From: Sphingopyxis terrae subsp. terrae NBRC 15098
Lineage (GTDB): Bacteria > Pseudomonadota > Alphaproteobacteria > Sphingomonadales > Sphingomonadaceae
Direction of reading: 5' to 3'
Assembly (NCBI RefSeq): GCF_001610975.1
Contig: NZ_CP013342.1
Coordinates: 1,364,001 to 1,428,000, forward strand
DNA: 64,000 bases
The number at the start of each line of letters is the position of its first letter. Positions within the stretch are counted from its first letter, which is position 1. Below the pieces are notes generated by a model, which was not told where the DNA came from, made no database searches, and worked only from the letters and a program-made list of their open reading frames with translations. The position numbers and the translations under genes were made by a program. Positions 4,374 to 49,773 of the stretch are shown piece after piece.

Positions 4374-4439
4374 GATGCCATCCTTTTCTGTTGGCGGTCG
4401 GCAATGCGATCCGGGCGCATGTTAAACGCGCGGCAGGAT

Positions 4440-4484
4440 GAGGTGCGGGAGCCATTGCGGGATGCGACCCGGCTCCCGCACCTC
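4440..4484. repeat. Perfect 14-bp inverted repeat between SRPBCC gene and P1B ATPase gene
   Basis: Positions 4440-4453 (GAGGTGCGGGAGCC) are the exact reverse complement of 4471-4484, with a 17-nt loop. The repeat lies in the 190-nt gap inside the minus-strand metal unit, 67 nt before the ATPase start. There is no T-run on the minus-strand exit side, so it is not a standard intrinsic terminator. It could be an mRNA stability or attenuation hairpin that sets a lower level for the distal genes. Confidence 0.6.
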
Positions 4485-4563
4485 CCTGACAGCCGGAAAT
4501 CCCTGCCCGTGGTGAGGGGGGCGATTGAGAGGGGCCTCCGACGGCCAGGTTTCGAATTCAAGA

Positions 4564-5034: not shown

Positions 5035-5115
5035 CGGAGACCTCCTCGCTCGCACGAGCTGGTCCGCGACGCAGGCCGGGGACCTGCGCCGCGGTGTAGA
5101 CCGGCAAGATGCCGG

Positions 5116-31491: not shown

Positions 31492-31573
31492 GCGCTGGCG
31501 AAGCCTCGTGGCTTCGCTGCTCCACCGATACAAATATATTGCAATTGGCCTCGCATGAACGACATTGGATGCG

Positions 31574-33667
31574 ATGCTGAGGCAGTATGAACTTGTCGAG
31601 CGCGTGCGCGCTTATGATCCCGACGTCGACGAGGCGCTGCTGAACCGCGCCTATGTCTTCACCGTACAGAAGCACGGGAGCCAGAAGCGCGCGTCGGGCG
31701 ACCCTTATTTCAGCCATCCGGTCGAGGTCGCGGGCATTCTGACCGACCTGCATCTCGACAGCGAGACGATCGTCACCGCGCTGCTCCACGACACGCTGGA
31801 AGACACGCTGACCACGCCCGAAGAGATCGAGCGGCTGTTCGGCGCCGACGTCGGGCGACTGGTCGATGGCGTCACCAAGCTCAGCAAGATCGAGGCGCAG
31901 ACCGAGAATGAGCGCGCCGCCGAAAATCTGCGCAAATTCCTCCTCGCCATGTCCGACGATATCCGCGTGCTGCTCGTCAAGCTCGCCGACCGGCTGCACA
32001 ATATGCGCACGCTGCATTTCATCAAGAATCCGGACAAAAGGCGCCGCATCGCCAAGGAGACGATGGACATCTATGCCCCGCTCGCCGAGCGGATCGGCAT
32101 GTATGAATATATGCGCGAAATGCAGCTTCTGGCCTTTCGCGAGCTCGAGCCCGAGGCCTATGCGACGATCACCGGCCGGCTCGCCAAACTGACCGCGGGC
32201 GGCAAGGACAAGGTCGCCGGGATCAGCCGCGAGTTCAAGGAACTGCTCGCGAAAAGCGGGATCGAGGCGGACGTGTCGGGGCGCGAAAAGCATCCCTATT
32301 CGATATGGCGCAAGATGCAGGAACGCCACGTCAGCTTCGAACAGGTCACCGACATCATCGCCTTTCGCGTCATCACGCGCAGCGATGCCGACTGCTATGC
32401 CGCGCTTGGCGTCTTTCACCGCAAGTGGAAAATGGTTCCCGGCCGCTTCAAGGATTATATCTCGACCCCCAAGCGCAACGGCTACAAATCGCTGCACACG
32501 ACGATCATGCACAATGAAAATATGCGGATCGAAATCCAGATCCGCAGCGAAGCGATGCACCAGCAGTCCGAATTCGGCTTTGCCGCGCACTGGGCCTACA
32601 AGCAGGGCGGCGGCTCACCCGACGGACAGGCGGGGTGGATTCGCGACCTGCTCGAAATCCTGGACCAGACGCACGATCCCGACGAACTGCTCGAGAATAC
32701 GCGCATTGCGATGTATCAGGACCGCATCTTCGCCTTCACGCCGAAGGGCAGCCTGTTCCAGCTTCCCAAGGGCGCGACGCCGGTTGATTTTGCTTATGCC
32801 GTCCACACCGGGCTCGGCGACCGCACCGTCGGTGCCAAGGTCAACGGCCGGCTCGTGCCGCTGCGCACCCAGCTCGTCAACGGCGATACCGTCGAGATAT
32901 TGTCGTCGGAAAAGCAGACGCCGCAGCCCGCGTGGCTGGGCTTTGCGGTGACGGGCAAGGCGCGCGCCGCGATCCGCCGCCACGTCCGGTCGAAGGAAAA
33001 GGTCGAACTCGCCGCCCTTGGCCGCAAGATGTACGACGAGATCGCCCGCCGCCTGCCCAACAAGGTCGGCGACAAGGCGCGCGCCGCCGCGCGCGAGCGG
33101 CTGAAGCTAGAGGATGACAGCGCGCTCTATGTCGCGATCGCACGGCGGCGATTGTCCGACGACCAGATTCTCGAAGCGCTCGTCCCCGGCATCACCGCCG
33201 AGATGAAATCGAAGCCGGGCAAGCTGCGCCAGGGCGCTGCGGTGTCGATCGAGGGGCTGACCCCCGGCGTCGCCTACAAGCTTGCCGACTGCTGCCACCC
33301 CGTTCCCGGCGACCGCATCGTGGGCCTCGCACGGCCCGGCGAGGGGATCGAGGTTCATGTGATCGATTGCCCCAGCCTGGCCGACGGAATCGACGCCGAC
33401 TGGATCGACCTGAGGTGGCAGGAGGACAGCGAGGGCGGCAATGCCCGGCTGTGCGTCGTAATCCTCAACGAAACCGGCACGCTCGCCGAAATGTCGGGCA
33501 TCCTCGCCGCCAATTCGGCGAATATCACCAATCTGCGGCTGTCGAACCGGGAGGGCGATTTCCACACCTATGACGTCGTCGTCGAGGTGCGCGACGTTCA
33601 GCATGTCATGCGTATCCTGTCCGCCCTTCGCGCATCGGACAGCGTCGTGCAGGCCGAGCGGCTCTAG
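31574..33667 (+). CDS. rsh: Bifunctional (p)ppGpp synthetase/hydrolase (RelA/SpoT, Rsh)
   Basis: The 697-residue cytoplasmic enzyme makes and degrades the stringent alarmone. The hydrolase HD domain is intact (LLHDTLED, His72, Asp73, Glu76, Asp77). The synthetase domain follows (about 230-340, FKDYISTPKRNGYKSLHTT), then TGS (about 385-450, VYAVHTGLGDRTVGAKVNGR region), a conserved ADCCHPVPGD helical or zinc-finger segment and a C-terminal ACT domain (about 620-695). Both activities therefore look functional, as expected for the single Rsh of alphaproteobacteria. ATG 31574 (MLRQYELVERV) is preferred over a TTG three codons upstream. No strong ribosome site is seen. Confidence 0.94.
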   Translation: MLRQYELVERVRAYDPDVDEALLNRAYVFTVQKHGSQKRASGDPYFSHPVEVAGILTDLHLDSETIVTALLHDTLEDTLTTPEEIERLFGADVGRLVDGVTKLSKIEAQTENERAAENLRKFLLAMSDDIRVLLVKLADRLHNMRTLHFIKNPDKRRRIAKETMDIYAPLAERIGMYEYMREMQLLAFRELEPEAYATITGRLAKLTAGGKDKVAGISREFKELLAKSGIEADVSGREKHPYSIWRKMQERHVSFEQVTDIIAFRVITRSDADCYAALGVFHRKWKMVPGRFKDYISTPKRNGYKSLHTTIMHNENMRIEIQIRSEAMHQQSEFGFAAHWAYKQGGGSPDGQAGWIRDLLEILDQTHDPDELLENTRIAMYQDRIFAFTPKGSLFQLPKGATPVDFAYAVHTGLGDRTVGAKVNGRLVPLRTQLVNGDTVEILSSEKQTPQPAWLGFAVTGKARAAIRRHVRSKEKVELAALGRKMYDEIARRLPNKVGDKARAAARERLKLEDDSALYVAIARRRLSDDQILEALVPGITAEMKSKPGKLRQGAAVSIEGLTPGVAYKLADCCHPVPGDRIVGLARPGEGIEVHVIDCPSLADGIDADWIDLRWQEDSEGGNARLCVVILNETGTLAEMSGILAANSANITNLRLSNREGDFHTYDVVVEVRDVQHVMRILSALRASDSVVQAERL

Positions 33668-33674
33668 CGAAACG

Positions 33675-36600
33675 TCAGTTCGGGTATGCCAGGGGCGGTC
33701 GCCATGCCGCCTGATCGACGGTGTCGCTGACCTTGTAGACCAGCCCCTTGCTGTTCAGGAACAGCTTCTCCATTTCGGGCCGGGTGAAGGGGCGCGAACC
33801 GACGCGGCCGAACACCGCCATCTGCCCCCCCGTTTCGTCGACCGCCCGGTCGCGGTCGAGCCCCTTCGACAGCGCGAGCGCCGGCGAAGGAGTTTTGGCC
33901 CAGGCGATCAGTTCGGGCGTCGGCGCGGGCGAGAAGCCATAGAGGCCGGGATTGTCCGGACTGGTAAGCTGAAGCACCTTGATGCCGTTCCGTCCGTCGG
34001 CGACATAGGCGAAGAGCGACGCGTTGGTCGATGCGACGATTACATCCTCGGCATCGTTGAGCGCCCCCCCGAAGGTCATCGCGGGCCAGGCGGCCGGCGC
34101 CATCGGCCGCGTGACGTCGACGATCACCAGACCATCCTGCTTGGCCGCGACATACATGAAGGTGCGCGCGAGATAGATCTTGCGCGCATTGGCGAGCCGC
34201 ACCGTTCCCGCCGGAACCGGTTCCGGCCGGTCCATATGCGTGATGTCGAACAGCTTCACGCCCTCCGCGTCAGTGACCCACAGGTACCGGAACTGCACGG
34301 CACTCGCGCGCGCATCGGTCATCGGCAGCTGCGCCGTCACCTTCGGTTCGAGCGGCGTCGACAGGTCGAGCACGACGAGCCCGGCATCGGTGGTGACATA
34401 GGCATAGTCGCCCGCAAGCGTCACGTGGCGGGCCCCGGCAAGCACATTGTCTGGATTCCACGTCAGCGCGCGGCTCAGCTTGTTATTGCGGAATTCGCCG
34501 TCCGCCATCGTGTCAATGTCGACCAGAATCAGGCCTTCGACGCTGTCGGTGATGACGGCATAGCGGTAGAGCGGGTGCAGTGCCTGTTCGTGATTTTCGG
34601 GGAAATCCTTACGGATATGCTCGTTGCGGGCCATGCTGATCGGCTGGTTCGTGCCGATCGCCATGCAGGTCGCGTTCGTCGTTTTGACATGCGTATCGTG
34701 CCCGAGCGGCGAAAAAGGCGCGCGGGTGATGCGTTCGGAGAAGCCCTTGTTGCCGATCGATGCGACGTCATAGACGCGAAAGCCGCCCCTGCCTTCGGCG
34801 ACATACATATATTCGCCGCGCAGTTGCAGGCAGTTGACCCGGCCGCTCGTCCCCTGGACGATATTCGCGAATTCCTCGAGCGCATGGCTTTCGCCCGACC
34901 CCTTCTTGTCGAAGGTCTTGCCGCGCACCCAATTTTTAAGCTCGCGATGGTTCTGATCGACGTGCAGGCGCCAATAGTCGGGATAGGCATATTTCTGGAG
35001 ATAGCTGCCGATCACCGCCTGCGGCTCGTCCCATTCGGTGACGCGCGTCGCCTGGAAGCCGTCCTCCAGCCCCGACCAGACATTGAGCCCGACGAAATTG
35101 ACGAAATTGGTCCCCATCAGGAGCAGCTGCGACATGATCGCATTATTGTCATCCGCCTGCGACAGATGGCAGTCGCTGCACTGCTTCGTTTCCTGACGCC
35201 GCACCGTATGCGGGAAATGCGGCGCGAAGGCCTGGCTCGAGAAGCCCGCAGCAGAGATCGGCGGCTGCTGGATATAGATGCGTTCGCGGTTGAGGTTCGT
35301 CGAGGACAAGACCAGCGCCGATGTCGACCGGATCGGCGCGATGATCCCGCGCGGATTGCCGTCGGCGTCGGGCTCGCCGGGCTTGGTCAGCATGTGCCGG
35401 CCGAGCTGGAACATTTCGTCGCGCGCGACCTGCGGGTTGTAGGTTGCGAAGTTGCGCGTCTCCTCCCCTTCGAAATGGTGCATGCTGGTCTTCCAGTTCG
35501 CCTCGATCGGCAAATGGCAACCGCCGCAGCTCGTCGTCCACGACAGGTGGCAGGTGAAGCAGGCCATCTTGTCGTCGCCGTGGGCGCGATCTTCCCTTGC
35601 CACGCCCGGCCCCCACGCAAAGCTGCCATCGTCGGCGCCGCTGCGCGACATCAGTTTGGCGCGCGCCGCCTTCGCGTTGAAATGCGGTCCCGGCGTCACC
35701 GCCTGCTTGACGAGGCTGACCTGCCACTGGAGCTTCGGATCGACGATCGACCGCTGGATCAGCCCGGTGATTTCGCCATTGTCGTCATATTGGAATTCGA
35801 ACCGGCGCCGGCCGTCCGAATTGCGGAGCAGCGCAAGATTGGTTCCCTGCGGCCGTGCCGCGACGTTCGAGGTGAGCAGATTGGGATAGGCGTCGGCGGT
35901 GCCGTGACAATCCTTGCACCCGATCTCGACCGCGTTCGCGACCTCGCCCTGGATATAACCATTGCCGTGCGCGTCCTGCGCGAAGTGGCAGTCGGCGCAC
36001 TGCATCCCCTTTTCGGCGTGAATGTCCATCATATGGACCGCCTTGCCGGGATTGATGCCGGGCGGCACGAACTTGCCCTCGATACCGGGCTTGGCGGGAT
36101 CGGCGCTGGCGAGACACAGGTCGCGCTGCGCCGGATCGCTGTAGCTCGCGCAGCTCTTGCGCCATTTTTCGGGGTCCTTGGGATCGACGATATGCGCCTT
36201 GTCGGTGCCATAGGTCGACATATTGCCGTCGGCGTCGAGCAGATTGCCGCTGCGGTCGCGCTTGAAGATGCCGCGGAAGTTCCAGCCATGGCCGTGATAG
36301 TCGGCAAACTGGGTGTCCTTGTTGCTGTCGTTCACGTCATAGACGTCGCGCAGAAACTCGACGTCGGCCCACAGGCCGCGCGGGCTCGCACCTTCGGGAT
36401 TGCGTTCGAGAACCTTGTGGACTTCGGCTGCGGTCGGATAGCGCTGTTGCTTGTATTTCTTCTGATATTCCTCGTCGCTCATCCCCGGTGGGCGCGGCGC
36501 GGTGTTGTCGGGGCCGGGCCATAGCTGCGGCGCGTCCGATTCATAATCCCACATCGTGTAGCCGAGGTAAGAGTTCAGGAAGATATTGGGCTGGTGCATG

Positions 36601-38003
36601 TGGCAATTCATGCACTGCGCCGTCGGGATCGCGCGGGTGAAGGCGTGGGTGATCGGATGCCCCGATTCGCGCCGGTCCTTCGCGGGTACGGCTTGCGGTC
36701 CGGCTTTTGCGGCTTCGGGGTCGATCAGCGCGCCATGGCCACCGGGCGACGGCGCATGTTTCTCCGCATCGCCATGCGCGTCGCCGGCGCCCCCACCATG
36801 TCCGCCGCCATGCCCGTCATCATCGGGTTTCCATTTCTTCCCCGCGATCGTCGGATCGATCGTCGCGCTTTCGCCATCGCGGCCATATTGCGCATAGGTC
36901 AGGCTGTGCCGCGGTTCGCGGTCGTTGGCATAGATGACATGGCAGCCGGCGCACCCCGACTGGCGATAATCGCCCGGCTGGTCGTTGGTTCCCATAAACC
37001 ACATATAGGGGTCGTTGAGGCGCGTCTTGTGGAGATTGAGCACCGCAATCGCGACGCGCAGGCCGGTGCCGGGGCCGCGGTTCGACTGTTTGAGGTCGGG
37101 GCGTCCCGGTTCCTCGAGGCGCTGGATGCTGCCCGTCGGGTTGGGCAGGCCGATTTCGGAAAACTGCGTGTTGATATTGCGCCCGCCGCGTTCAAAGACG
37201 CGAAACACATCGCTAGGCGGCATGACATTCCAGCGCGGCAGCGGATAGAGCCGCGCCAGCGCTCCCCGCTTGGTCTCCGGTGCCGTCAATATCTTGTCGG
37301 ACGGAAAGTCGGGTTTGCAGGCCTGTTTATATTCCTCCGCCGTCAGCTGCGACGAGGGCGAGAGGACGCACGCTGGATCGCCATCCCGCGTATAGGCCTC
37401 TCCGAACAGATATTGCTTATAGGGAACAATGCCGTTGTTATAGGCCGCGCCGCCCCAGAACATCGCCGCCGTGGACATCAGCGACCGTTCGGTCGCCTCG
37501 ATAATCTCGAGGTGGCACGACCCGCACGCCTCGCGCGCGACGCGGTAGTCGCTCGGGTTGACGAAGCGGATATATTCGGGCGCTTCCTTGTTGAGCAGCG
37601 TGTAGCTGCGCTTCGGGTTCGCCGATGTGCCACCCCACGCCCCGGGCAGCGTCGGCTGGGGATGCGCGAGTTTCATCGCCGCCAGATTATAGGGATTGTC
37701 GTAGCCGAGTTCGGGGCGCCCGAACGCCGCGGGCGATTGCGAATCCCCGCCGTGGCAGTCGGTACAGCCCAGCCGCACCGCAGGCGTCGCGTGCATCGAC
37801 GGCCGGTCGGTCTGGGTGTGGCAGCTGTAACAGCCCTTCGACTTTGCCTCGACGTCGGCCTCGCTCTGTTCGCGCGGCGCCGGCGGCGTGAAGCGATAGG
37901 TGACGGCGACCGGCTTTTCGCCTTCCGACGCGCGCGCGCCCTGCATACCGGCGGTCATCGCCATCAATAGGAAGATCAGGAGGGCGAGCAGCCTGCGCAT
38001 CAT
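33675..38003 (-). CDS. Decaheme c-type cytochrome fused to LVIVD-repeat beta-propeller
   Basis: The 1442-residue exported protein has a signal peptide (about 1-26) and ten CXXCH heme sites, at Cys 58, 80, 160, 351, 464, 669, 696, 815, 826 and 942. A Gly/His-rich insertion (about 397-424) lies between hemes four and five. The part from about 1060 to 1400 has no heme and instead shows repeated strands (GLILVDI, GLVVLDLS, GVKLFDI, GLVIVDV) of the LVIVD propeller family. It is the last gene of a four-gene unit and starts 3 nt after the barrel gene. An electron-transfer role is firm from the hemes; extracellular location and the partner are inferred. It is convergent with rsh. Confidence 0.88.
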   Translation of the reverse strand: MMRRLLALLIFLLMAMTAGMQGARASEGEKPVAVTYRFTPPAPREQSEADVEAKSKGCYSCHTQTDRPSMHATPAVRLGCTDCHGGDSQSPAAFGRPELGYDNPYNLAAMKLAHPQPTLPGAWGGTSANPKRSYTLLNKEAPEYIRFVNPSDYRVAREACGSCHLEIIEATERSLMSTAAMFWGGAAYNNGIVPYKQYLFGEAYTRDGDPACVLSPSSQLTAEEYKQACKPDFPSDKILTAPETKRGALARLYPLPRWNVMPPSDVFRVFERGGRNINTQFSEIGLPNPTGSIQRLEEPGRPDLKQSNRGPGTGLRVAIAVLNLHKTRLNDPYMWFMGTNDQPGDYRQSGCAGCHVIYANDREPRHSLTYAQYGRDGESATIDPTIAGKKWKPDDDGHGGGHGGGAGDAHGDAEKHAPSPGGHGALIDPEAAKAGPQAVPAKDRRESGHPITHAFTRAIPTAQCMNCHMHQPNIFLNSYLGYTMWDYESDAPQLWPGPDNTAPRPPGMSDEEYQKKYKQQRYPTAAEVHKVLERNPEGASPRGLWADVEFLRDVYDVNDSNKDTQFADYHGHGWNFRGIFKRDRSGNLLDADGNMSTYGTDKAHIVDPKDPEKWRKSCASYSDPAQRDLCLASADPAKPGIEGKFVPPGINPGKAVHMMDIHAEKGMQCADCHFAQDAHGNGYIQGEVANAVEIGCKDCHGTADAYPNLLTSNVAARPQGTNLALLRNSDGRRRFEFQYDDNGEITGLIQRSIVDPKLQWQVSLVKQAVTPGPHFNAKAARAKLMSRSGADDGSFAWGPGVAREDRAHGDDKMACFTCHLSWTTSCGGCHLPIEANWKTSMHHFEGEETRNFATYNPQVARDEMFQLGRHMLTKPGEPDADGNPRGIIAPIRSTSALVLSSTNLNRERIYIQQPPISAAGFSSQAFAPHFPHTVRRQETKQCSDCHLSQADDNNAIMSQLLLMGTNFVNFVGLNVWSGLEDGFQATRVTEWDEPQAVIGSYLQKYAYPDYWRLHVDQNHRELKNWVRGKTFDKKGSGESHALEEFANIVQGTSGRVNCLQLRGEYMYVAEGRGGFRVYDVASIGNKGFSERITRAPFSPLGHDTHVKTTNATCMAIGTNQPISMARNEHIRKDFPENHEQALHPLYRYAVITDSVEGLILVDIDTMADGEFRNNKLSRALTWNPDNVLAGARHVTLAGDYAYVTTDAGLVVLDLSTPLEPKVTAQLPMTDARASAVQFRYLWVTDAEGVKLFDITHMDRPEPVPAGTVRLANARKIYLARTFMYVAAKQDGLVIVDVTRPMAPAAWPAMTFGGALNDAEDVIVASTNASLFAYVADGRNGIKVLQLTSPDNPGLYGFSPAPTPELIAWAKTPSPALALSKGLDRDRAVDETGGQMAVFGRVGSRPFTRPEMEKLFLNSKGLVYKVSDTVDQAAWRPPLAYPN

Positions 38004-38006
38004 CGT

Positions 38007-39965
38007 CTAGAAACTCACGATCAGATTGGCGAGGACCGAGACATAAGCCCGGTCGCGCTCGCGATTCTCGAACAGATCCTTGAATCCGTCACCGGGCAGC
38101 AGCACCGCGGCGCTGAGGCGGCCGACGATATTCTGTGTCGCCTTGGGCCGCCAGATGCCCGCCACCGACAGATCCCAGCCGATATCCTTGGGGATCGACC
38201 CTTCGCTGCGCAGCACCTGCAAACCCGCGGTATTGTCGAACCACAGATGATTGGCATTCACGCTGACGCGCGTTTCGGGCGACAGGTCGAAATCGGCGCC
38301 GGCGCCGACGAAAACGGTGCCAGGGTTGTTGAAATTCGACTGCCCCTCTTCCTTCGATGAGCGCAGCGAATTGAGGATGCCGTTGCGACCGTTGATCGAA
38401 ATGACGCGCCCGCCGCCCGCAAAGGGAATCGTCTGACGAATCCAGTAGCTGGTGTCGGCGCCGCCGAAGATCGGATTTTCGAAGATCGCGTCGAAGCCGC
38501 CCTCGACATTGTTATAGGGATCGCTGTCGCCGGTGGCGTAAAGGCCCGACAGGCGAAAGCGCATCCAGTCATGATCATAGCTGAGTTCGGCGGCGCCGAA
38601 GCCCGCGCGGATCTTTGCCGGCTTGCTGGTGAAGAAGCTGTTCCGGTCCTCGCCCAGCGCCGCATAGAAGCTGGCGGTCAGATTAATCCGTCCGATGCGC
38701 CCGTCGGCGCTGTAGCCGAGGTAGGTCACGTCATATTCGCGGCCGCGCAGATCGCCGAGCAGCGCCGGGCGCACCGGAAAGCCGTTATGATCGATCTGGA
38801 TGTCGTTCTTTTCGCGGTTGCGATTGTAGGTGACGCTGACCTGGCTCGTCAGTCCGACGAAGGGGAAGTCCTGGCGATAGAGGTTCGCGGTGAAGATGAA
38901 ATCGTCGCGCGGGCTTTGCGTGATGTCGTTGAGCCCGCTGTTGGTGTCCTTTTCGAGCCGCCAGAAGGCCGCGACATTATATTGGAAGCGATTGTTGTCG
39001 CGGTTGCCGAACAGGCGGATGCCGAGTTGGCTGTCATTGAACAGGAAACCGCGAAAATCGCTCTGGAACGGCTGGATGCCGATGCGGATCGAATGGAAGT
39101 CGTAACGGTCGCTGTCGTTGCCCAGATGCTTGTCGACGAACAATTCCTGCACCCCCAGGAAATTGTCGTAACGATGGCTCGGCTGCGACGGGCGCACGTC
39201 GAGCACGCGCCGTTCGGGCACGTCGACATAGTTGAAATTATAGGCCAGCGTAACGCGATATTCGACGTCGGGCGGCTTGAAGGCGGTCGATCCCTTGATG
39301 AGCGCGGCACCCGCGATCAGCGTCTGCGACAGCACGAAGCTGCGGTTCTTGCCGAACACGTCGAGGCTGCCCGGCCGCTCGGTGGTCTGGACGCCGACCG
39401 GAATCGGAAAGGTGCGCGGTTCGAACACCGTGTCCGACACCGCGCTGGCGACGAAAAACCAGTCGTCGCCCCTGATCGGCAGCCACGGCACCTTCGACCG
39501 GTCGATCGGTCGATCGCCCTTCAGCGTATTCTGATGATAGGGGTCGAACCAGCGTTCCTTCACCACGCCAAGCGATTCGATGAGGCGCCAGCGGTCGGGC
39601 ACCGGCAGTTGATCCTCGATCCCCGGAAAGGCCTGCGGCGGCGGCGGGCGCAGCGCCCCGACATTGTCCTGCCGCATCTGGTCGGGCAGGTCGGGCGTGT
39701 AGCCAGGACGGCGGCGCCCTTCGATGATCTGGGTGACCAGATCGTCCTTCAGCACATCCTTCCAGTCGACCGGCGGCGGCGGCGGGATCAGCGCTTCGCC
39801 GTCGGGCGCCGGGATCGCAGCCGGCGCCGCGTCCGGCGCGGCGCCATGGGGCGCGGGCGGTTCGGGCGGCGGCGGGGGTGGCGGCAGCGCCTGACCCGCC
39901 GCGGGCGCGCCCTGCGCCGCAAGCGTCGCGATGATCGGCAGCAGGCTGCTTCCAAGCGCGCTCAT
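38007..39965 (-). CDS. Outer-membrane beta-barrel protein with proline-rich N-terminus
   Basis: The 652-residue product reads as a large barrel. Alternating polar and apolar strands with aromatic girdles occur from about 200 to the end (for example YRVTLAYNFNYVDVP, FRLSGLYATGDSDPYNN), and the chain ends in Phe (VLANLIVSF), the usual outer-membrane insertion signal. The N-terminal region is odd: a weak hydrophobic leader without basic residues, then runs of Pro and Ala (about 25-68). It sits between the HbpS lipoprotein gene and the decaheme gene with 3-nt gaps. In porin-cytochrome conduits the barrel sheaths a periplasmic cytochrome; that role is proposed here by context. No heme motif is present. 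Confidence 0.75.
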   Translation of the reverse strand: MSALGSSLLPIIATLAAQGAPAAGQALPPPPPPPEPPAPHGAAPDAAPAAIPAPDGEALIPPPPPVDWKDVLKDDLVTQIIEGRRRPGYTPDLPDQMRQDNVGALRPPPPQAFPGIEDQLPVPDRWRLIESLGVVKERWFDPYHQNTLKGDRPIDRSKVPWLPIRGDDWFFVASAVSDTVFEPRTFPIPVGVQTTERPGSLDVFGKNRSFVLSQTLIAGAALIKGSTAFKPPDVEYRVTLAYNFNYVDVPERRVLDVRPSQPSHRYDNFLGVQELFVDKHLGNDSDRYDFHSIRIGIQPFQSDFRGFLFNDSQLGIRLFGNRDNNRFQYNVAAFWRLEKDTNSGLNDITQSPRDDFIFTANLYRQDFPFVGLTSQVSVTYNRNREKNDIQIDHNGFPVRPALLGDLRGREYDVTYLGYSADGRIGRINLTASFYAALGEDRNSFFTSKPAKIRAGFGAAELSYDHDWMRFRLSGLYATGDSDPYNNVEGGFDAIFENPIFGGADTSYWIRQTIPFAGGGRVISINGRNGILNSLRSSKEEGQSNFNNPGTVFVGAGADFDLSPETRVSVNANHLWFDNTAGLQVLRSEGSIPKDIGWDLSVAGIWRPKATQNIVGRLSAAVLLPGDGFKDLFENRERDRAYVSVLANLIVSF

Positions 39966-39968
39966 CGC

Positions 39969-41948
39969 CTATAGCCCCTGGCAGACATTCTGCTGGCTGG
40001 TGTCGAGGAAGGGCGCAAAGGGGCAGCTGATGTAGCGCAGGCGCACTGTCTTTCCATCGGACAGCGTGACGACGATATTGTCGGCACGCTTGTCGATCGG
40101 GGCGTTGCCGATCGTGCCCACGCGCGCGCCGCCGTTATGCGTCCCGAGGAAGCTGATCATATCGTCCTGGTCGATGCCGTCGCCCGACACGCCGATCGCG
40201 CCGACAAGCTGCGTCCCGCGATAGATGGGCACCGAACCCGGGAAAATCTGGATACCGTTCTGCAGGCGATTCTGCCCCGCCGCGACGTCGGGCAAGGTCG
40301 TGCAGCGTTGCGGCGTGTCGGTCGCGCTGGCGCCCGACACGAAGCCGAGGTGCACGCCGATATTGCCGATGACGAGGGCGGATTGCAGCCCGGTCGAAAA
40401 GGGATTGAACTGCGCGATCGGGCGCGACAGCGGGCCATTGGGCCGCCCGACCTCGCCGTCGGGGAAATAGGGGCGCGACAGATTGCCCCCCGACCGGTCG
40501 GCGAAGGCGAAGGTGCCGGTGAGCGCGCTCGGATCGTTCAGAAAGCTGCGCACCGCGGGGACGAAATGCTGCACGTCGGCGCTGGCGTTGGCGCTGAGTT
40601 CCGCTCCGGCGTTGGCGCCCGAGAAAAAGGCCGCGGTGCGCGCCTTCTGCAGCGATACGTCGGTGCCGAAAATCGGCGCGTCGGGCGCGCGCACGATGCC
40701 GAGCACGGCGCCATGCGTATCGACGAGGCTGATCGTCACCTGCGCCCGGCTGTCGAGCGGGCGGCGAATCTGCGCGCGCGCGCGGCTCATCACCGCAAAG
40801 GCATCTTCGAGCACGGCGCGCACCTCGGCCTGGGTCAGCGGCGCGCTGTTGGTCGATGCATCGGTGCCGGCGCGGATCGGGAAGCGGTTGGTGCCGCTGC
40901 CATTGGTCAGGACAAAGGCATCGCGGTTGGAAAATTCGGCTGCGGTCGAGGCGCGGATTCCCGACGCTTCACTGCCATAGGCGGTGCCCGCGACGATCGC
41001 CGCGGCGGCATAGCCGATGACCGCGACCAGATTGCCGGCCGTGCCGTTCAGGCTGGCGAAGCTCGCGCCGCCGCTCGTCTGCAAGCCGCCATAAGTGGCG
41101 TCCGAAAAGCGCAGCGTCGTCCCGTCGACGGTGATCTTGTCGGCGGTGATCGCCGCCGGCGCCTCGAACCCGCGCGTCCCGGCGAGCGCAATGAACTCCT
41201 CGGCATCATTGTCGATGTCGAGAATGTTGGAATCGCTGCCATAGACGCCGTCGCCCATCACCCCGATGCCGCCGACGAGCACGCCATTCTTGTAAAGCGG
41301 CAGGCCGCCCGGGTCGGCCGCGAGGCCGAGCGGCGAGCGCTTTGGCCCGATCAGCGCGCCGCCGCCCATGGCGCCGAAGCGCGCGGCAAGATCGCTGCAC
41401 GGAAGCTGGCTGAACTGCACCCCGAACAGCGGCCCGCTCTCCAGCCCCGCAGTCGTCGGCGCGGGCGGGAAATGCTCCTGGACGATCTGGCTCGCGGTGC
41501 GCGTCGAAAAGGCGTTGCCGCCGCTCGACAGATAGGCGCCGGTGATCGCCTTCGCGATCGCACCCGCTTCTGCAGGGAAGGTGACGTTCTGCGCGTCGAT
41601 ATTGTCGCCGTTGGGCGCCGCCGAGGTCGTCGCGGTGGCGCGCGCGCCGTTCATGCGGAAGACACCGAGGACATTGCCGACGCGGTCGGTGACCGCGATT
41701 ACCGACGGAAGGCCGCGCGCCTGCGCCTCGGCGATTGCGCCGGCCAGTACGGTCTGGACGTCGGCGACGCTGAGCGACTGGCTCGCGGGCGGCGTGTAGA
41801 GGCCGCCGGTCGGAGTGGGAGTCGGCGTCGGCGTGGGCGTTGGCGAGGGGGTCGGCGTGCCGCCGCCTCCACCGCCGCACGAGGCGAGGAGCAGTGCCGG
41901 GCCGGCGACAAGGGCGGCGGTACGAAAGAGGCGCGATCGGGTCCGCAT
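39969..41948 (-). CDS. Tandem HbpS/GlcG-domain lipoprotein
   Basis: The 659-residue lipoprotein starts at ATG 41948, 4 nt after the upstream cytochrome stop. It has a lipobox (LASC, Cys24), a Gly run, a Thr-Pro repeat linker (about 31-46) and two HbpS/GlcG-like domains (about 52-300 and 370-640). Each contains the family pattern of AxxxAxARGLP-like helix, VVDxxGxVLGxxR-like strand and GGIGVMGDG / GAIGVSGDG loop. HbpS of Streptomyces binds heme and iron; GlcG is of unknown function. In this unit it might deliver heme or shield redox centres at the membrane surface. Two Cys near the C-terminus (CPFAP, NVCQGL) may form a disulfide. Confidence 0.8.
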   Translation of the reverse strand: MRTRSRLFRTAALVAGPALLLASCGGGGGGTPTPSPTPTPTPTPTPTGGLYTPPASQSLSVADVQTVLAGAIAEAQARGLPSVIAVTDRVGNVLGVFRMNGARATATTSAAPNGDNIDAQNVTFPAEAGAIAKAITGAYLSSGGNAFSTRTASQIVQEHFPPAPTTAGLESGPLFGVQFSQLPCSDLAARFGAMGGGALIGPKRSPLGLAADPGGLPLYKNGVLVGGIGVMGDGVYGSDSNILDIDNDAEEFIALAGTRGFEAPAAITADKITVDGTTLRFSDATYGGLQTSGGASFASLNGTAGNLVAVIGYAAAAIVAGTAYGSEASGIRASTAAEFSNRDAFVLTNGSGTNRFPIRAGTDASTNSAPLTQAEVRAVLEDAFAVMSRARAQIRRPLDSRAQVTISLVDTHGAVLGIVRAPDAPIFGTDVSLQKARTAAFFSGANAGAELSANASADVQHFVPAVRSFLNDPSALTGTFAFADRSGGNLSRPYFPDGEVGRPNGPLSRPIAQFNPFSTGLQSALVIGNIGVHLGFVSGASATDTPQRCTTLPDVAAGQNRLQNGIQIFPGSVPIYRGTQLVGAIGVSGDGIDQDDMISFLGTHNGGARVGTIGNAPIDKRADNIVVTLSDGKTVRLRYISCPFAPFLDTSQQNVCQGL

Positions 41949-41952
41949 CGGC

Positions 41953-43398
41953 TTACCGCAGCGCCTGAATCGCGCGCACCGCGCTGCCGAAGGAGGCTTG
42001 GAAGTCGCTGGGCTTGTAGGCGTTGGGATCCTTGACCGAGGCATAGGCGCGGTCGATGTCGGCGCGGATGCCCGCCGCAGCGCCGATGGTGATCCGCCCC
42101 GACGAAACCATCGCGTTGAGCAGCGTGTCGACCCCCATCACCGCCTGCGATGACCCCGCATAGTCGGTGAAGCGGTCATTGACCGCCTTCCCCGCAATCG
42201 CATCGACCATCGCAAAGGCGTCGGTGCCCGAAAAGGCGCGCGCTGCGAAGGCGCTTTTGAGCGCCGCGACCGTCTGCGCCAGATCAGCGGCGGCGCGAAC
42301 CGCGGCCGGACGATCGGTCGCGATCGCGCGGTGGAAGGCGGCGCTGCGCGCGCCGAGCTGTTCGGCAAGCGCGGGCGAGGCCATGCGCGCGGCGGCCGAG
42401 AGCATGATCAGATTTTCGTCATTATAGGGCGGCATGCCTTCGGGAATGCCCGGCCGCGCCGGATTGTCGACGCTGGTCTTCACCGGCTTCGCCTGATCGT
42501 AGATCCGGCGGTGGCAACTGTGGCAGTCGAGGAAATAAAATTCGGGGAACATCCCCTCGGTCCCGCGTTTCGACTGGAACAGCGCGAGGCTGCGTTCGAG
42601 CGCGGTCGCCTGCCCCACCGCCCACATCTGCACATGGTCGGTGCGCGCGCCCGCCGCGCCGAACTTGCGCCAGCCATAATCGGCATCTTCCTGATGATGC
42701 GCCTGGAGCGAGGAGAAGAGGTCGAGCTCGAATGAAATGCGCGGATGCCCCGCCGCCATGATGCGGTGGGTGACGAACTGCCCCTCGCCCGCGGCCCCGA
42801 AATGGCAGTCGACGCACACGCCCGCGCGCACCACCGGATCCTCGAGCCGGCGCAAGCCGGCGCGCAGATTGGCGAGATGCTTCTCGCGCATTTCGCCGCC
42901 GGGGCTGGGGTTGGCGCCGACCCCGGCATAATGGCTCGCGATCCAGCTGCCTGCAGGACCGTGGCAGGATTCGCAGGTGACGCCGTCCTCGACCGGCGCG
43001 GCACCGCGGCTCGTTGCCGCATCGCTGTGGCACCCAAGGCACATCGAGGCGCGCGCCGGATCGCCGATGCCGAGGTTGCGGGCAATGAACTGGCTTCGGC
43101 TGGTGTTGAGCACGGCCCAGGCGCGGCTATGCGCGCCGCCGGGGGTCGAGGGTTCCTGCCAGCGCATCAACTCGTCCTGACGGACAACGACGCCGTCGCC
43201 CTCCATCCGGCCGTGGCAGGTCGATCCCGCGCAGGACGCAACACCCAGAAAACGCCCGCCGCTTTCGCCCTGCGAGCGCGCCGGAGGCGCCGAAAGCGTC
43301 GCGGCGATCGCAAGCATGGCAAGCAGCAGCGCCAGTGCCGCCACCGCCGCCCACGACCGATCGCCGCGCCCGATGCCAGCGTGCGTCGTCATTCCCAC
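41953..43398 (-). CDS. Membrane-anchored multiheme c-type cytochrome (c554-like)
   Basis: The 481-residue protein has an N-terminal hydrophobic segment (about 16-38) acting as signal or anchor, four CXXCH sites (Cys 120, 142, 195, 292) and an earlier CX4CH site (Cys56 to His62). Spacing and the GHPRISFELDLFSS segment recall the cytochrome c554 family. The last 170 residues are helical and heme-free. Translation may begin at GTG 43398 (AGGGGA upstream) or ATG 43392. It is the first gene of the cytochrome unit and probably passes electrons between the inner membrane or periplasm and the barrel-decaheme pair. It starts 31 nt after gdhA. Confidence 0.86.
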   Translation of the reverse strand: MGMTTHAGIGRGDRSWAAVAALALLLAMLAIAATLSAPPARSQGESGGRFLGVASCAGSTCHGRMEGDGVVVRQDELMRWQEPSTPGGAHSRAWAVLNTSRSQFIARNLGIGDPARASMCLGCHSDAATSRGAAPVEDGVTCESCHGPAGSWIASHYAGVGANPSPGGEMREKHLANLRAGLRRLEDPVVRAGVCVDCHFGAAGEGQFVTHRIMAAGHPRISFELDLFSSLQAHHQEDADYGWRKFGAAGARTDHVQMWAVGQATALERSLALFQSKRGTEGMFPEFYFLDCHSCHRRIYDQAKPVKTSVDNPARPGIPEGMPPYNDENLIMLSAAARMASPALAEQLGARSAAFHRAIATDRPAAVRAAADLAQTVAALKSAFAARAFSGTDAFAMVDAIAGKAVNDRFTDYAGSSQAVMGVDTLLNAMVSSGRITIGAAAGIRADIDRAYASVKDPNAYKPSDFQASFGSAVRAIQALR

Positions 43399-43429: not shown

Positions 43430-44785
43430 CTAAACGACCCCGAACGCCAGCATCGCGTCGGCGACTTTCTTGAAGCCGGCGATGTTCGCGCCCTTCACAT
43501 AATCGATATAGCCGCCGCCCTGATCGCCATAGGTCAGGCAGCGTTCGTGGATGCCCGCCATGATATCCTTGAGCATCTGTTGCAGCTCGGCTTCGCTCCA
43601 GCTGCGCCGGCCGCTGTTCTGGCTCATTTCGAGGCCCGAAACCGCAACCCCGCCGGCGTTGGCCGCCTTGCCGGGCGCGAACATGATCTTTGCGTCCTTG
43701 AAGACATGAACACCGGCAAGGTCGGTCGGCATGTTCGCGCCCTCGCTCACCGCGATGCAGCCGTTCGCCACCAGCATTTTCGCATCATCGCCATTCAGCT
43801 CGTTCTGCGTCGCGCACGGCAGCACGACGTCGCACGGCACCGCCCACGGCGTTTTGCCCGCGGTAAAGGTGGCGCTCTTGAACTCGGCGCAATAATCCTC
43901 GATCCGGCCGCGCCGGTGCGTCTTGTGCGCCTTAACCCAGTCGATCTTTTCCTGGGTGATGCCGTCGGGATCGTGGATGAAGCCGCCCGAATCGGACAGG
44001 GTGAGCACCTTGCCGCCCAGCTGCACGATCTTTTCCGCCGCGTGCGTCGCGACATTGCCCGATCCCGAAATCACCGCGCTCTTGCCGACGAGATCCTGCC
44101 CCTTCGCCGCAAGCATGTTTGCGAGGAAATAGACAGCGCCATAGCCCGTCGCCTCGGTCCGGATCAGCGAGCCGCCCCATTCAAGGCCCTTGCCGGTGAG
44201 CACCCCGGTAAATTCGTTCGTAATGCGCTTGTACTGGCCGAACATGAAGCCGATTTCGCGTCCGCCGACGCCGATGTCGCCCGCCGGCACGTCGACGTCG
44301 GCGCCGATGTGGCGATAGAGCTCGGTCATGAAGCTCTGGCAGAAGCGCATGATCTCGCGCACGCTCTTGCCCTTCGGGTTGAAGTTCGACCCGCCCTTGC
44401 CGCCGCCCATCGGCAGGCCGGTGAGCGCATTCTTGAACGTTTGTTCGAACGCCAGGAATTTGAGGACGCTTTCGGTCACGCTCGGGTGAAAGCGGATGCC
44501 CCCCTTATAGGGGCCGATGGCATTGTTGTTCTGAACCCGCCAGCCGCGCTGGACGCGGATATTGCCGTTGTCGTCCTCCCAGCAGACGCGGAAGGACACG
44601 ACCCGGTCGGGTTCGGCAATGCGCCGCAATATCTGCTGCGCGTGATATTCTTCCTTGTCGGCGATGAAGTCGAAAATATCCTCGGCGACTTCCTGCACCG
44701 CCTGGACGAACTCGGGCTGGCCCGGGTTGCGCCGCTTCACACCTTCCATGAACGTCGGAAAATCGACGTGATCCGCTACCGCCAT
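43430..44785 (-). CDS. gdhA: NADP-specific glutamate dehydrogenase
   Basis: The 451-residue cytoplasmic enzyme aminates 2-oxoglutarate to glutamate. The substrate-binding segment LPMGGGKGGSNFNPKGKS and the RVQNNNAIGPYKGGIRFHP region mark the hexameric NADP-type (GdhA) family. The Rossmann part shows VISGSGNVATHAAEKI, and the C-terminus GGYIDYVKGANIAGFKKVADAM is intact. It lies upstream of the cytochrome unit on the same strand with 31 nt between, and no terminator oriented for the minus strand is seen. Read-through into the cytochromes is therefore possible. A small dyad ACGAT-TTT-ATCGT (44836-44848) lies in its promoter region. Confidence 0.96.
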   Translation of the reverse strand: MAVADHVDFPTFMEGVKRRNPGQPEFVQAVQEVAEDIFDFIADKEEYHAQQILRRIAEPDRVVSFRVCWEDDNGNIRVQRGWRVQNNNAIGPYKGGIRFHPSVTESVLKFLAFEQTFKNALTGLPMGGGKGGSNFNPKGKSVREIMRFCQSFMTELYRHIGADVDVPAGDIGVGGREIGFMFGQYKRITNEFTGVLTGKGLEWGGSLIRTEATGYGAVYFLANMLAAKGQDLVGKSAVISGSGNVATHAAEKIVQLGGKVLTLSDSGGFIHDPDGITQEKIDWVKAHKTHRRGRIEDYCAEFKSATFTAGKTPWAVPCDVVLPCATQNELNGDDAKMLVANGCIAVSEGANMPTDLAGVHVFKDAKIMFAPGKAANAGGVAVSGLEMSQNSGRRSWSEAELQQMLKDIMAGIHERCLTYGDQGGGYIDYVKGANIAGFKKVADAMLAFGVV

Positions 44786-46583: not shown

Positions 46584-49500
46584 CTAACCCGCCATCAGCG
46601 CCGCATTGCCGCCCGCGGCGGTGATGTCGGTCGAGATCGATTTTTCCTCGGCGAAACGGTGCAGATAATGCGGGCCACCGGCTTTCGGCCCCGTGCCCGA
46701 CAGACCTCGGCCGCCGAAGGGCTGCGATCCAACGATCGCGCCGATCTGGTTGCGATTGACATAGACATTGCCGACCGCCGCGCGCGCCGCGACATGCGCC
46801 GCGACGCCGTCGATCCGCGTGTGGACGCCTAGCGTCAGGCCATAGCCCGAGGCGTTGATCGCGTCGATCAGCGCGTCGAGCTCGCCGCCTTTCCATGTCG
46901 CGAAATGCAGCACCGGTCCGAAAATCTCGCGCCTGAGATCGGTGACATGATCGAGGCGGATCATCGTCGGCGGTACGAAGGTACCGCCCGCCGGCCAATC
47001 GGTGCGCGCCGCCTCTGCGATCACGCGGCCCGCGGCGCGCGCATCCGCGACATAAGCCGCAATGTTCGCTTGCGCCTCGGCATCGATGATCGGACCGACG
47101 TCGGTCGAGAGGATCGCCGGGTCGCCGATGTTGAGTTCGGCCATCGCGCCCGCGACCATGTCGATCATCGTGTCGGCGACATCCTCTTGCACGCAAAGCA
47201 GGCGAAGCGCCGAACAGCGCTGGCCCGCCGATTGGAAAGCGCTCGCGACGGCGTCACGCGCGACCTGTTCGGGAAGCGCGGTCGAATCGACGATCATCGC
47301 GTTGGCACCGCCGGTTTCGGCGATCAGCGTCGCGATCGGACCGTCACGCCCCGCGAGGCTGCGGTTGATCGCGCGCGCAACCTCGGTCGATCCGGTGAAT
47401 GCGACGCCGATGATATCGTCATGACCGGTCAGCGCTGCGCCCACCGTTTCGCCGCGACCGGGGAGAAATGCCAACACATCGGCGGGCACACCCGCCTCGA
47501 GCAGCAATTCTATCGCGGCATGCGCGATCAGCGGCGTCTGTTCGGCGGGCTTCGCCAGCACGGCGTTGCCCGCGGCGAGCGCCGCCGAGACCTGCCCCAG
47601 AAAGATCGCCAGCGGGAAATTCCACGGGCTGATGGCAACGAAGACGCCCTTGCCTTCGAGGATCAGTTCGTTGCGCTCGCCGGTCGGGCCGGGCAGCGCG
47701 ATGGGGTAGGAGAAATCGGCGCGCGCCTGGGCGGCATAATAGCGCAGGAAGTCGACCGCCTCGCGCACTTCGGCCACCGCATCGACGAGCGTCTTGCCCG
47801 CCTCGTCGATCGCCAGTCCCAGAAAGAGAGCATCGCGTTCCTCGAGCAGATCGGCCGCGCGTTCGAGCCGTTCGGCGCGGAAGGCGCCGCCGGCCAGACT
47901 CCAGTCGCCCTGCGCGGCGCGCGCGGCGGCGATGGCGGCATTGACCATATCGGCGTGGGCCTCAATTACATGACCGACGACAGCGCCGGTTGCGGGATTG
48001 CGCACCGCTTCGGCGGTGCCCGCCGCTGCCGTGCCGCCGACGATCGGCGCCGCGATGCGCCCGCTGTCACGCGCCCCGGCAATCGCGGCCGCCAGCGCCT
48101 CGGGCACGCCGGGTTCGCCAAGGTCATAGCCGCGCGAATTGCGCCGGACGGGATCGAAAAGCTGGAGCCCGGTCGGGATCTTCGACGGCACGCTCGCGAT
48201 GCTGCGCGGGTCGACCGCCAGCTCTTCGGCGGTCACGTCGGGGTCCGAAAACTGGTGCACGAAACTGCTGTTCGCGCCATTTTCGAGCAGGCGGCGGACG
48301 AGATAGGCGAGCAGGTCGCGGTGGGTGCCCACGGGCGCATAGACGCGTACCGGGCGCGGCGGCGGCGACAGCGCAACGATCGCATCATGCGCGCCTTCAC
48401 CCATGCCGTGCAGCCGCTGCAGTTCGTAATCGGCGCCGTCGAACAGTTCGGCGATGAAGGCCAGCGTCATCGCATTATGCGTCGCAAAGGCCGGGAAGAT
48501 GCAATCCTGATGCTCGCGCAATATCTGCGCGCACGCCATATAGTTGAGGTCGGTGTGGTTCTTTGCGGTGAAGACCGGAAAATCGCCGAGCCCCATCGTC
48601 TGCGCGCGCTTGATCTCGGTATCCCAATAGGCGCCCTTGACCAGCCGCATCGACAGCATGACGCCCCGCGCGCGCGCCTTGGCGGCAACCCAGCGGATCG
48701 CCTCGCTCGCGCGCTTCTGATAGGCCTGGATCACGATGCCGAGCCCGGTCCAGCCGTCGGCGAGCCCCGCGTCGATCAGCGCGCCATAAACGTCGAGATG
48801 CGGTTCGAGCCGGTCGCTTTCCTCGGCATCGATCATCAGCGGAATGTTGACGCCGCGCGCGGCGCGGGCGAGCGCGATAACATCGGGGATCAATTCTTCG
48901 CGAACGCGCTCGGCCTGCAGATATTCGTAACGCGGGTGGAGCGCCGACAGCTTGATCGAAATGCCGTGGTTGGCAAATGGGTCGCCCGGCTTCGCATCGC
49001 GGCCGATGCGCGCGATCGCCGCGGCATAGCTGTCATAATAGCGCCGCGCATCCTCTGCGGTGCGCGCCGCTTCGCCGAGCATGTCGAAGCTGGCGAGTTC
49101 GCCCTTGTCCTTGTCGGCACGCCGCACCGCGGCGTCGATCGTTTCGCCCATCACGAACTGCTGGCCGAGCAGCTTCATCGCCGCGAGTGCCGCCTGGCGG
49201 ATCACCGGCTCGCCCGAGCGGCGGATCATCGACTTGAGCAGGGTGAGCGGGTTCGCCTTGCTGCCCATCGCGCCGAGCATCAGCGTCGCCGAGCCCAGCG
49301 ACAGGCCGCGCGCCGACAGCGCGACAACCAGCGGGCTGTCCTCATCCTCGCCCTCGCGCCAATGGCGTCCGGCGATCTTGTCGCGGATCAGCGCATTGGC
49401 GGTCGCGCTGTCGGGAACGCGCAGCAGCGCTTCGGCAAGGCACATCAGCACGACGCCTTCCTCGGTCGACAGGCGGTAGCGATTCATGAGCTGCGCGACG

Positions 49501-49676
49501 AGCGTTTCGCGCTCGCCCTCGGCCTTCGCCTTGCGGATGAGCGCGAGCCCCCGCCGCGTCACTGCCTCGAGGGTGGCGGGCGAGCGGGCAAGCTGGGTCC
49601 GCAGATCGGCGACAAGGTCGGCTTCGGAACGGCGGGCGAGGGCGCGGATGGCGGCGCGGTCGGTCGGCTGGGTCAT
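46584..49676 (-). CDS. putA: Bifunctional proline dehydrogenase / glutamate-semialdehyde dehydrogenase PutA
   Basis: The 1030-residue enzyme oxidises proline to glutamate in two steps with channelled intermediate. The FAD-dependent PRODH barrel spans about 120-460 (MIDAEESDRLEPHLDVYGAL, RLVKGAYWDTEIKRAQ, ATHNA) and the NAD-dependent P5C dehydrogenase spans about 540-1000 (ISPWNFPLAIFLGQ; catalytic Cys in QSAGQRCSALRLL). There is no N-terminal ribbon-helix-helix domain, so unlike E. coli PutA it should not repress itself. The divergent Lrp-family gene probably regulates it. ATG 49676 is chosen; upstream codons are not conserved in appearance. Confidence 0.95.
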   Translation of the reverse strand: MTQPTDRAAIRALARRSEADLVADLRTQLARSPATLEAVTRRGLALIRKAKAEGERETLVAQLMNRYRLSTEEGVVLMCLAEALLRVPDSATANALIRDKIAGRHWREGEDEDSPLVVALSARGLSLGSATLMLGAMGSKANPLTLLKSMIRRSGEPVIRQAALAAMKLLGQQFVMGETIDAAVRRADKDKGELASFDMLGEAARTAEDARRYYDSYAAAIARIGRDAKPGDPFANHGISIKLSALHPRYEYLQAERVREELIPDVIALARAARGVNIPLMIDAEESDRLEPHLDVYGALIDAGLADGWTGLGIVIQAYQKRASEAIRWVAAKARARGVMLSMRLVKGAYWDTEIKRAQTMGLGDFPVFTAKNHTDLNYMACAQILREHQDCIFPAFATHNAMTLAFIAELFDGADYELQRLHGMGEGAHDAIVALSPPPRPVRVYAPVGTHRDLLAYLVRRLLENGANSSFVHQFSDPDVTAEELAVDPRSIASVPSKIPTGLQLFDPVRRNSRGYDLGEPGVPEALAAAIAGARDSGRIAAPIVGGTAAAGTAEAVRNPATGAVVGHVIEAHADMVNAAIAAARAAQGDWSLAGGAFRAERLERAADLLEERDALFLGLAIDEAGKTLVDAVAEVREAVDFLRYYAAQARADFSYPIALPGPTGERNELILEGKGVFVAISPWNFPLAIFLGQVSAALAAGNAVLAKPAEQTPLIAHAAIELLLEAGVPADVLAFLPGRGETVGAALTGHDDIIGVAFTGSTEVARAINRSLAGRDGPIATLIAETGGANAMIVDSTALPEQVARDAVASAFQSAGQRCSALRLLCVQEDVADTMIDMVAGAMAELNIGDPAILSTDVGPIIDAEAQANIAAYVADARAAGRVIAEAARTDWPAGGTFVPPTMIRLDHVTDLRREIFGPVLHFATWKGGELDALIDAINASGYGLTLGVHTRIDGVAAHVAARAAVGNVYVNRNQIGAIVGSQPFGGRGLSGTGPKAGGPHYLHRFAEEKSISTDITAAGGNAALMAG

Positions 49677-49773
49677 GGCGCATGATAGCATGCGGTGAAA
49701 AGGCAATCCGCCTTCAATCGCGCACCTACGATTATCTTTTGACCTATTATCGGCGTCATATTAGGCAATTGGT

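Follow-up and report, generated by a model that had tools for sequence, protein, structure and literature searches.

The locus

The genes considered here lie in a stretch of 64,000 nucleotides from Sphingopyxis terrae subsp. terrae NBRC 15098 (the window; C1:1364001-1428000 of the 3.98 Mb genome, termed G000 in our sets). An earlier note, made from the letters alone, had described four genes on its minus strand, separated by gaps of 3-4 nt, as a candidate transmembrane electron conduit. The open reading frames (ORFs) of the window bear out this layout: all four are on the minus strand where the note had placed them, with intergenic gaps of 4, 3, and 3 nt. Read along that strand, the block and its most prominent domain match are as follows.

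41953..43398, minus strand: c554-like cytochrome, probably penta-heme; GTG start; hydrophobic N-terminal stretch at 13-41
39969..41948, minus strand: tandem HbpS/GlcG-like lipoprotein; lipobox LLAS-C, read by eye
38007..39965, minus strand: predicted outer-membrane β-barrel, AlgE-like; 18 modeled strands; last residue Phe
33675..38003, minus strand: decaheme c-type cytochrome fused to a C-terminal LVIVD β-propeller (LVIVD-cytochrome); 10 CxxCH
34344..34433, minus strand: top-scoring LVIVD stretch within the propeller (residues 1191-1220; Pfam)

One boundary was corrected: the start of the HbpS gene was set to the ATG at 41948, because the longer ORF reaching to 42044 would overlap the upstream gene. 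Otherwise, the HbpS, LVIVD, and multiheme assignments made before agree with Pfam. The HbpS protein matches PF03928 in three stretches (E 1e-21), the LVIVD-cytochrome matches PF08309 (LVIVD; E 6e-15) as well as the cytochrome c families PF14522 and PF14537, and the c554-like cytochrome matches PF13435 (E 1e-9).

Conservation of the cofactor sites was counted only in those alignment rows that passed a length filter. Nine CxxCH motifs of the LVIVD-cytochrome are present in 93/93 rows and the tenth in 92/93; a further 14 histidines outside these motifs are invariant, 13 being located in the heme region and one in the propeller. The c554-like cytochrome contains four CxxCH motifs plus one CX4CH, with Cys56 and Cys61 each present in 97% of 68 rows. 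Because this conserved CX4CH adds to the other four, the protein probably carries five hemes. Its single hydrophobic stretch could be either an anchor or a signal peptide. Some c554 rows from relatives are unreliable owing to an antisense ORF that was sometimes labeled c554 (e.g., in L100, L108, and L110-L113, where the true match is on the other strand), and ORF calls in relatives favor upstream starts, which makes exact starts there unreliable.

The arrangement of the block is strictly kept. Among 80 loci from named genomes, found via the barrel, all 59 that had full flanks carry the genes for c554, HbpS, barrel, and LVIVD-cytochrome in this order and direction; the 21 others were too short to judge. 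Flanking genes vary between Sphingopyxis and the other genera, with the four-gene block itself constant. The earlier note had pointed to the terminal phenylalanine of the barrel; in all 98 barrel ORFs called, the last residue is F or Y (L043, cut by the end of its contig, was left out).

Distribution and co-inheritance

The distribution of the genes supports a single electron-transfer unit, barrel included, that is inherited together. In a draw of 196 Sphingomonadales genomes (the window's own included), strong matches to the LVIVD-cytochrome, the barrel, full-length HbpS, and c554 occurred in the same 39 genomes, and so did those to a fifth protein, the FHA-cytochrome described in the next section. 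Among 289 alphaproteobacterial genomes, 20 had strong matches to the barrel, and these 20 were also the ones with strong matches to the LVIVD-cytochrome. A barrel occurring widely without the cytochromes, which had been named as an argument against a conduit, was thus not observed in either set. In at least six genera (g1, g2, g3, g4, g6, and g15), some genomes carry the genes and others lack them, and all five vary together. The genomes compared share kinship, so simple chance probabilities would overstate the case. The counts leave aside weak matches, which were, for the LVIVD-cytochrome, G086 (9e-11, multiheme part only); for HbpS, 44 genomes with a partial or low-complexity best match (E 1e-7 or worse); for c554, G004 and G018 (5e-4); and, in the alphaproteobacterial set, G216, G306, G377, and G430 (LVIVD-cytochrome) as well as G330 and G454 (barrel).

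Loci with the block span Sphingopyxis, Sphingobium, Novosphingobium, Sphingomonas, Croceicoccus, and Tsuneonella; the closest match of the window's LVIVD-cytochrome among the listed homologues is from S. terrae (97%). In a phylum-wide draw of 398 genomes, for which the barrel was not used as a query, 23 matched, 11 of them strongly (eight sphingomonads plus G710, G810, and G803) and 12 weakly. The copy in G803 is gammaproteobacterial; its barrel is 100% identical to that of Colwellia echini and has relatives in Thalassotalea and in metagenome-assembled genomes (MAGs) of Pseudomonadales, with 51-55% identity to the window barrel in aligned rows. Further copies are carried by a 404 kb plasmid of Sphingopyxis indica and by 12 replicons of Sphingobium (0.88-1.28 Mb).

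An inner-membrane trio belongs to the unit

The earlier note had counted four genes, which is too few. Three further genes recur beside the block in relatives, encoding a flavoprotein fusion (∼800 amino acids, aa), a membrane protein (∼280 aa), and the FHA-cytochrome (∼600 aa). In the window's genome, this trio is located at about C1:2711.1-2716.4 kb, 1.3 Mb away from the block. The two halves also lie apart in G065, G074, and G178, and because these four genomes keep both, linkage does not explain the co-inheritance there. Outside Sphingomonadales, among genomes picked from the earlier sets, the FHA-cytochrome was found in 5/5 genomes positive for the outer half and in 0/24 others. One or two stop codons inside otherwise good block or trio matches were seen in G145, G019, G132, and G810; they reflect either decay or assembly errors.

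Where the FHA-cytochrome gene adjoins the block, its position differs between groups. It is convergent with the block, 0.85-3.4 kb past the LVIVD-cytochrome gene, in 29 of the 80 genome-contig loci (28 at the 55-bit limit), and is not in view in the Sphingopyxis loci, L046, and L055. Of the 19 non-sphingomonad loci (L098-L116, fetched by place), 17 have it upstream of the block and co-directional with it; the two exceptions are L102, which begins within the barrel gene, and L115, the copy of which is just outside the stretch and on the opposite strand (C42:110392-112131). Ten loci (L100, L101, L104, L105, L107, L108, and L110-L113) also encode a protein of ∼150-220 aa between the FHA-cytochrome and HbpS; the only one scanned, from L111, matched no Pfam family.

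The flavoprotein gene is directly upstream of that for the membrane protein, a putative cytochrome b. Its product combines a pyridine-nucleotide-disulphide oxidoreductase domain with a pair of cyclic-nucleotide-binding domains and with [4Fe-4S] domains of the ferredoxin type; the iron-sulfur domain matches PF13247 with 39.4 bits (cut-off 26.2). Across 31 rows, 16 cysteines in four groups of four are invariant, and the phosphate-binding Glu/Arg pattern is kept in both cyclic-nucleotide domains (31/31). Among the PDB sequences related to parts of this fusion are those of PKA RI-alpha, YpdA/Bdr, and formate hydrogenlyase subunit 2. The FHA-cytochrome has a weakly FHA-like N-terminus, one transmembrane (TM)-like stretch, and ten CxxCH motifs in 46/46 rows, together with exactly ten more invariant histidines, as bis-histidine-coordinated hemes would need. 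Its gene is adjoined by another one, which was found in 28/28 sphingomonad loci at the 55-bit limit and also in G000:

L121:13427-14275: gene resembling class III cyclic-nucleotide phosphodiesterases; located immediately downstream of the FHA-cytochrome gene in sphingomonads

The protein resembles Rv0805; among L098-L116, a match to it is in view only in L115 (37%).

In the membrane protein, five histidines are nearly invariant (≥98% of 45 rows), and four of them form two HX13H pairs; the motif WX3HX13H occurs twice in 43/45 rows and SGXXG in 45/45, G000 included. These residues also bear on the idea that the system is an assimilatory reductase, which would serve uptake by reducing heme or ferric chelates at the outer membrane, HbpS being its heme-binding or heme-handling component. 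The membership in the HbpS family agrees with it, as do the HX13H pattern, which is common to FRE/NOX according to the main text of PMC5566968, and a weak match of a relative's cytochrome b to the ferric-reductase family PF01794 (E 0.0013, under the cut-off). Such a role is nonetheless a long shot, as block and trio contain no iron-uptake gene (surroundings and Fur sites were not searched) and as 25 c-type hemes would, in our judgment, be costly for iron scavenging.

A proposed electron line

From the gene content, gene order, co-inheritance, and conserved cofactor sites observed, we infer an electron line that spans the envelope, is fed by NAD(P)H, and delivers outward at the outer membrane. 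We favor this reading with a probability of a little under one half (∼0.47); that the inner membrane has a module of its own makes the envelope-spanning part more credible. The trio would be its inner half and the four genes its outer half. In the cytosol, the YpdA/ferredoxin-reductase-like flavoprotein would take electrons from NAD(P)H via FAD and pass them through four [4Fe-4S] clusters to the membrane protein, which would hold two hemes b. From there, they might proceed to the decaheme FHA-cytochrome, presumably periplasmic with one TM helix and an FHA-like cytosolic domain, then to the penta-heme c554-like protein as periplasmic relay, and finally to the decaheme-propeller protein at the outer membrane. 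The latter would dock on the AlgE-type barrel and serve an acceptor outside, or nearly so. The two PKA-R-like domains of the flavoprotein, together with the phosphodiesterase-like gene neighboring the FHA-cytochrome in sphingomonads, suggest that a cyclic nucleotide may control the line. If so, regulation through ligand-binding domains built into the first electron carrier would, to our knowledge, have no parallel in other electron-export chains.

The outward direction is favored because neither Fe(II) nor Mn(II) can directly reduce NAD(P)+ at neutral pH; energy input is needed to do so. The sphingomonads carrying the block are heterotrophs, which also counts against inward flow, that is, an outer half oxidizing an external donor such as Fe(II) or Mn(II) to feed the inner membrane. 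Inward electrons were hypothesized by He et al. (2017; main text of PMC5566968) for PCC4, a cluster compared below; the signature of the PCC3/PCC4 membrane protein is found here, and the hosts reported include Fe(II) oxidizers. The cytosolic end, however, is an NAD(P)H-type flavoprotein, not directly reducible from Fe(II) or Mn(II), and we consider this direction improbable.

The putative outer-membrane crossing

The weakest step of the proposed line is its passage through the outer membrane. Neither Pfam nor NCBIfam holds a family for the barrel, and the barrels of the window, L116, L111, and L106 matched nothing in Pfam even at E 1; UniRef labels one homologue (P0241) “Alginate export domain.” Alignment profiles of the barrel and the LVIVD-cytochrome matched no PDB sequence. 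The modeling alignments were hand-picked from larger lists (78 rows for the barrel, 61 for the LVIVD-cytochrome). In the structure model of the barrel, the N-terminus (1-151) is of low confidence, with a partly conserved segment within it (121-150). MtrB is not among the 50 fold matches listed for it, which does not exclude one. In four of nine modeled outer loops, conservation exceeds that of the strands (0.71), namely in 186-207 (0.76), 302-309 (0.96), 336-354 (0.83), and 478-549 (0.83), which suggests a partner or a plug in the lumen there.

A number of observations weigh against the line as proposed. The barrel model has 18 strands and is of the AlgE type, with AlgE as best fold match and the OprD/Occ substrate channels next, which makes it doubtful that a folded multiheme wire is accommodated inside. 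Conservation of the remaining five outer loops (0.43-0.70) falls below that of the strands (0.71). The N-terminus of the LVIVD-cytochrome (1-20) is hydrophobic and Sec-like, and a lipobox is absent by eye; the structure model of this protein (residues 28-1060) is too poor for use, with a predicted local distance difference test (pLDDT) of 46.4 and a predicted template-modeling score (pTM) of 0.34. Anchoring of HbpS at the surface or membrane appears not to be constant, because a lipobox is missing in 15/18 non-sphingomonad HbpS ORFs (by a simple pattern, several with uncertain starts). At the inner end, the YpdA match of the flavoprotein is under the cut-off, as is the FHA assignment in Pfam (E 0.011), and so are the matches of the phosphodiesterase-like protein to CpdA and SpdA, the latter named as a 2′,3′-cyclic nucleotide enzyme. 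Sphingopyxis, moreover, is described as strictly aerobic in the available text of PMC4741004.

As to the lipobox-less HbpS ORFs (L098-L101 and L103-L113), about half have a plain signal peptide, and the remainder have uncertain starts.

The chain could also end in the periplasm, the decaheme-propeller protein being a terminal reductase or other oxidoreductase and the AlgE/OprD-like barrel a dedicated channel for its substrate or product, with no electrons crossing the outer membrane. Candidate substrates would be organic, an oxyanion, a chelate, or heme. This arrangement would account for the fold ranking, the less conserved loops, the Sec-like N-terminus, the variable lipobox of HbpS, and a barrel lacking a family match to MtrB/PioB. 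What it explains less readily is the constant pairing of barrel and cytochrome, which, together with the four highly conserved loops, suggests that the barrel has a physical partner and is more than a pore. Furthermore, the 13 histidines of the heme region suffice for ten distal ligands, and an open catalytic heme is not obvious, which is no proof of its absence. A periplasmic end is a serious rival, somewhat less likely than the conduit; if correct, the system would be a very heme-rich oxidoreductase of which no description was found. Thus, of the conduit interpretation, the co-inherited unit with its barrel holds and gains a dedicated inner-membrane module, whereas the barrel itself models as AlgE-type and does not match the MtrB/PioB family; exchange with the outside would still be an inference.

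In its most explicit form, the outward line would mean that many aerobic sphingomonads have a cyclic-nucleotide-gated, NAD(P)H-fed exporter leading from the cytosol to the surface over 25 c-type hemes, with a decaheme-propeller protein on an AlgE-type, non-Mtr barrel. All of this taken together is rather unlikely. If it were true, common freshwater, soil, and biofilm bacteria thought to be strict aerobes could dump electrons outside, by a route that starts at NAD(P)H itself and may be under the control of a cyclic nucleotide. Such an exporter would also imply a barrel family unused by Mtr-type systems and direct second-messenger control of electron flow, and its genes could be tested for a part in electrode or mineral activity in cultivable members of Sphingopyxis, Sphingobium, and Novosphingobium.

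Neighboring genes

Upstream of the block, the window carries a gene that may be related to its electron supply:

43430..44785, minus strand: Glu/Leu/Phe/Val dehydrogenase family gene, probably glutamate dehydrogenase; co-directional, 31 nt upstream of the block

A dehydrogenase gene is found beside the block in 36 loci and in the same-genus locus of G116. It may supply NAD(P)H and might be an operon partner, which is suggestive only. In L114 (from G810, a non-sphingomonad alphaproteobacterium), a glutamate-dehydrogenase-like gene with 54% identity to that of the window is situated between c554 and HbpS (3719-5065 as oriented). The product of 46584-49706 (minus strand) resembles a bifunctional proline dehydrogenase/pyrroline-5-carboxylate dehydrogenase (PutA), as judged from the translation alone; this protein and the probable glutamate dehydrogenase could turn proline into reducing power beside the block.

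On the other side, a RelA/SpoT-type gene (31565-33667, plus strand) is convergent with the LVIVD-cytochrome gene, 7 nt separating their ends. It lies beyond the block in most Sphingopyxis loci of sufficient length and not in the loci of other genera. No FNR- or CRP-like site was found at two or fewer mismatches upstream of the window genes or the trio. A shared site of this kind was dropped as a candidate, as the few sites with two mismatches came from three other genomes and were inconsistent.

Comparison with known systems

A description of the system in sphingomonads was not found in the open-licence literature, in a search that was not exhaustive and had key supplements outside its scope. 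In the available text of the respective sources, neither the statements on cytochromes in the anoxic transcriptome of Sphingopyxis granuli TFA nor the list of terminal acceptors of this strain mentions it (PMC6472365), S. terrae appears among the MAGs of a study on an anode-enriched community that does not make the link to electron transfer (PMC8258643), and the main text of a large multiheme survey does not name sphingomonads (PMC11475568). The portions available of PMC12133095, PMC8805035, and PMC13322032 provide no link to sphingomonads either. A mutant screen in Thioclava electrotropha was rejected as a link, the multiheme cytochromes not being hit in the text available (PMC9226611).

With MtrCAB, MtoAB, and PioAB, the system shares in principle a barrel, a decaheme cytochrome, and an inner-membrane donor. 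By the family tests made, it would nonetheless not be of the Mtr/Mto/Pio type. In the whole genome, no match to the MtrB/PioB barrel (PF11854) was over the cut-off, the best being elsewhere with 18.7 vs 23 bits; no control genome passed either, so the sensitivity of this comparison is uncertain. Against the MtrA/DmsE-family decaheme model (TIGR03508, cut-off 192.2), the c554-like protein scored 15.5 and the FHA-cytochrome 19.6 bits, and the LVIVD-cytochrome was unlisted; the OmcA/MtrC family PF22113 gave 13.4 and 26.5 bits, below 30.

AlgE and alginate export resemble the block in the modeled 18-strand barrel fold, a likeness that shows no function. In contrast to AlgE and OprD/Occ, there are no alginate genes in block or trio and no match to their sequence families, a cytochrome gene adjoins the barrel in every carrier examined, and four outer loops are strongly conserved. 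The multiheme region is weakly similar to ExtM (NCBIfam NF040943; 70.6 bits, far under the cut-off of 800). The Uet (undecaheme) pathway of Tenderiales may be similar in that it pairs a small porin with propeller (NHL) proteins and also uses a multiheme cytochrome in the periplasm. The available text of PMC10734462 mentions only some of the Uet cytochromes.

PCC3 also combines multiheme cytochromes with a barrel, and is larger, with medians of 34 and 21 hemes and porins of up to 42 predicted TM regions (PMC5566968), vs 10 and 10 hemes and 18 modeled strands here. The closest description is that of PCC4, a cluster proposed by He et al. (2017; PMC5566968) in other Proteobacteria, including Alpha- and Gammaproteobacteria, and Planctomycetes; the terms “Sphingo,” “propeller,” and “cyclic” are absent from the main text of that paper. 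As described there, PCC4 has a porin, three multiheme cytochromes, and no extra surface cytochrome, as is the case here, and the inner-membrane signature of PCC4 and PCC3, SGXXG plus two WX3HX13H, is that of the membrane protein of the trio. PCC4 Subgroup II has, in addition, a pfam13247 iron-sulfur component adjoining the membrane protein. This component is encoded by a separate gene there, whereas here it is fused to the flavoprotein with two cyclic-nucleotide-binding domains, and the heme numbers are 4, 5, and 10 in PCC4 vs 5, 10, and 10. Because the heme counts set it apart, and because the likeness is one of description and not of sequences, we call the system PCC4-like rather than PCC4. 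It is not wholly new: related wires have already been proposed in iron-oxidizing bacteria.

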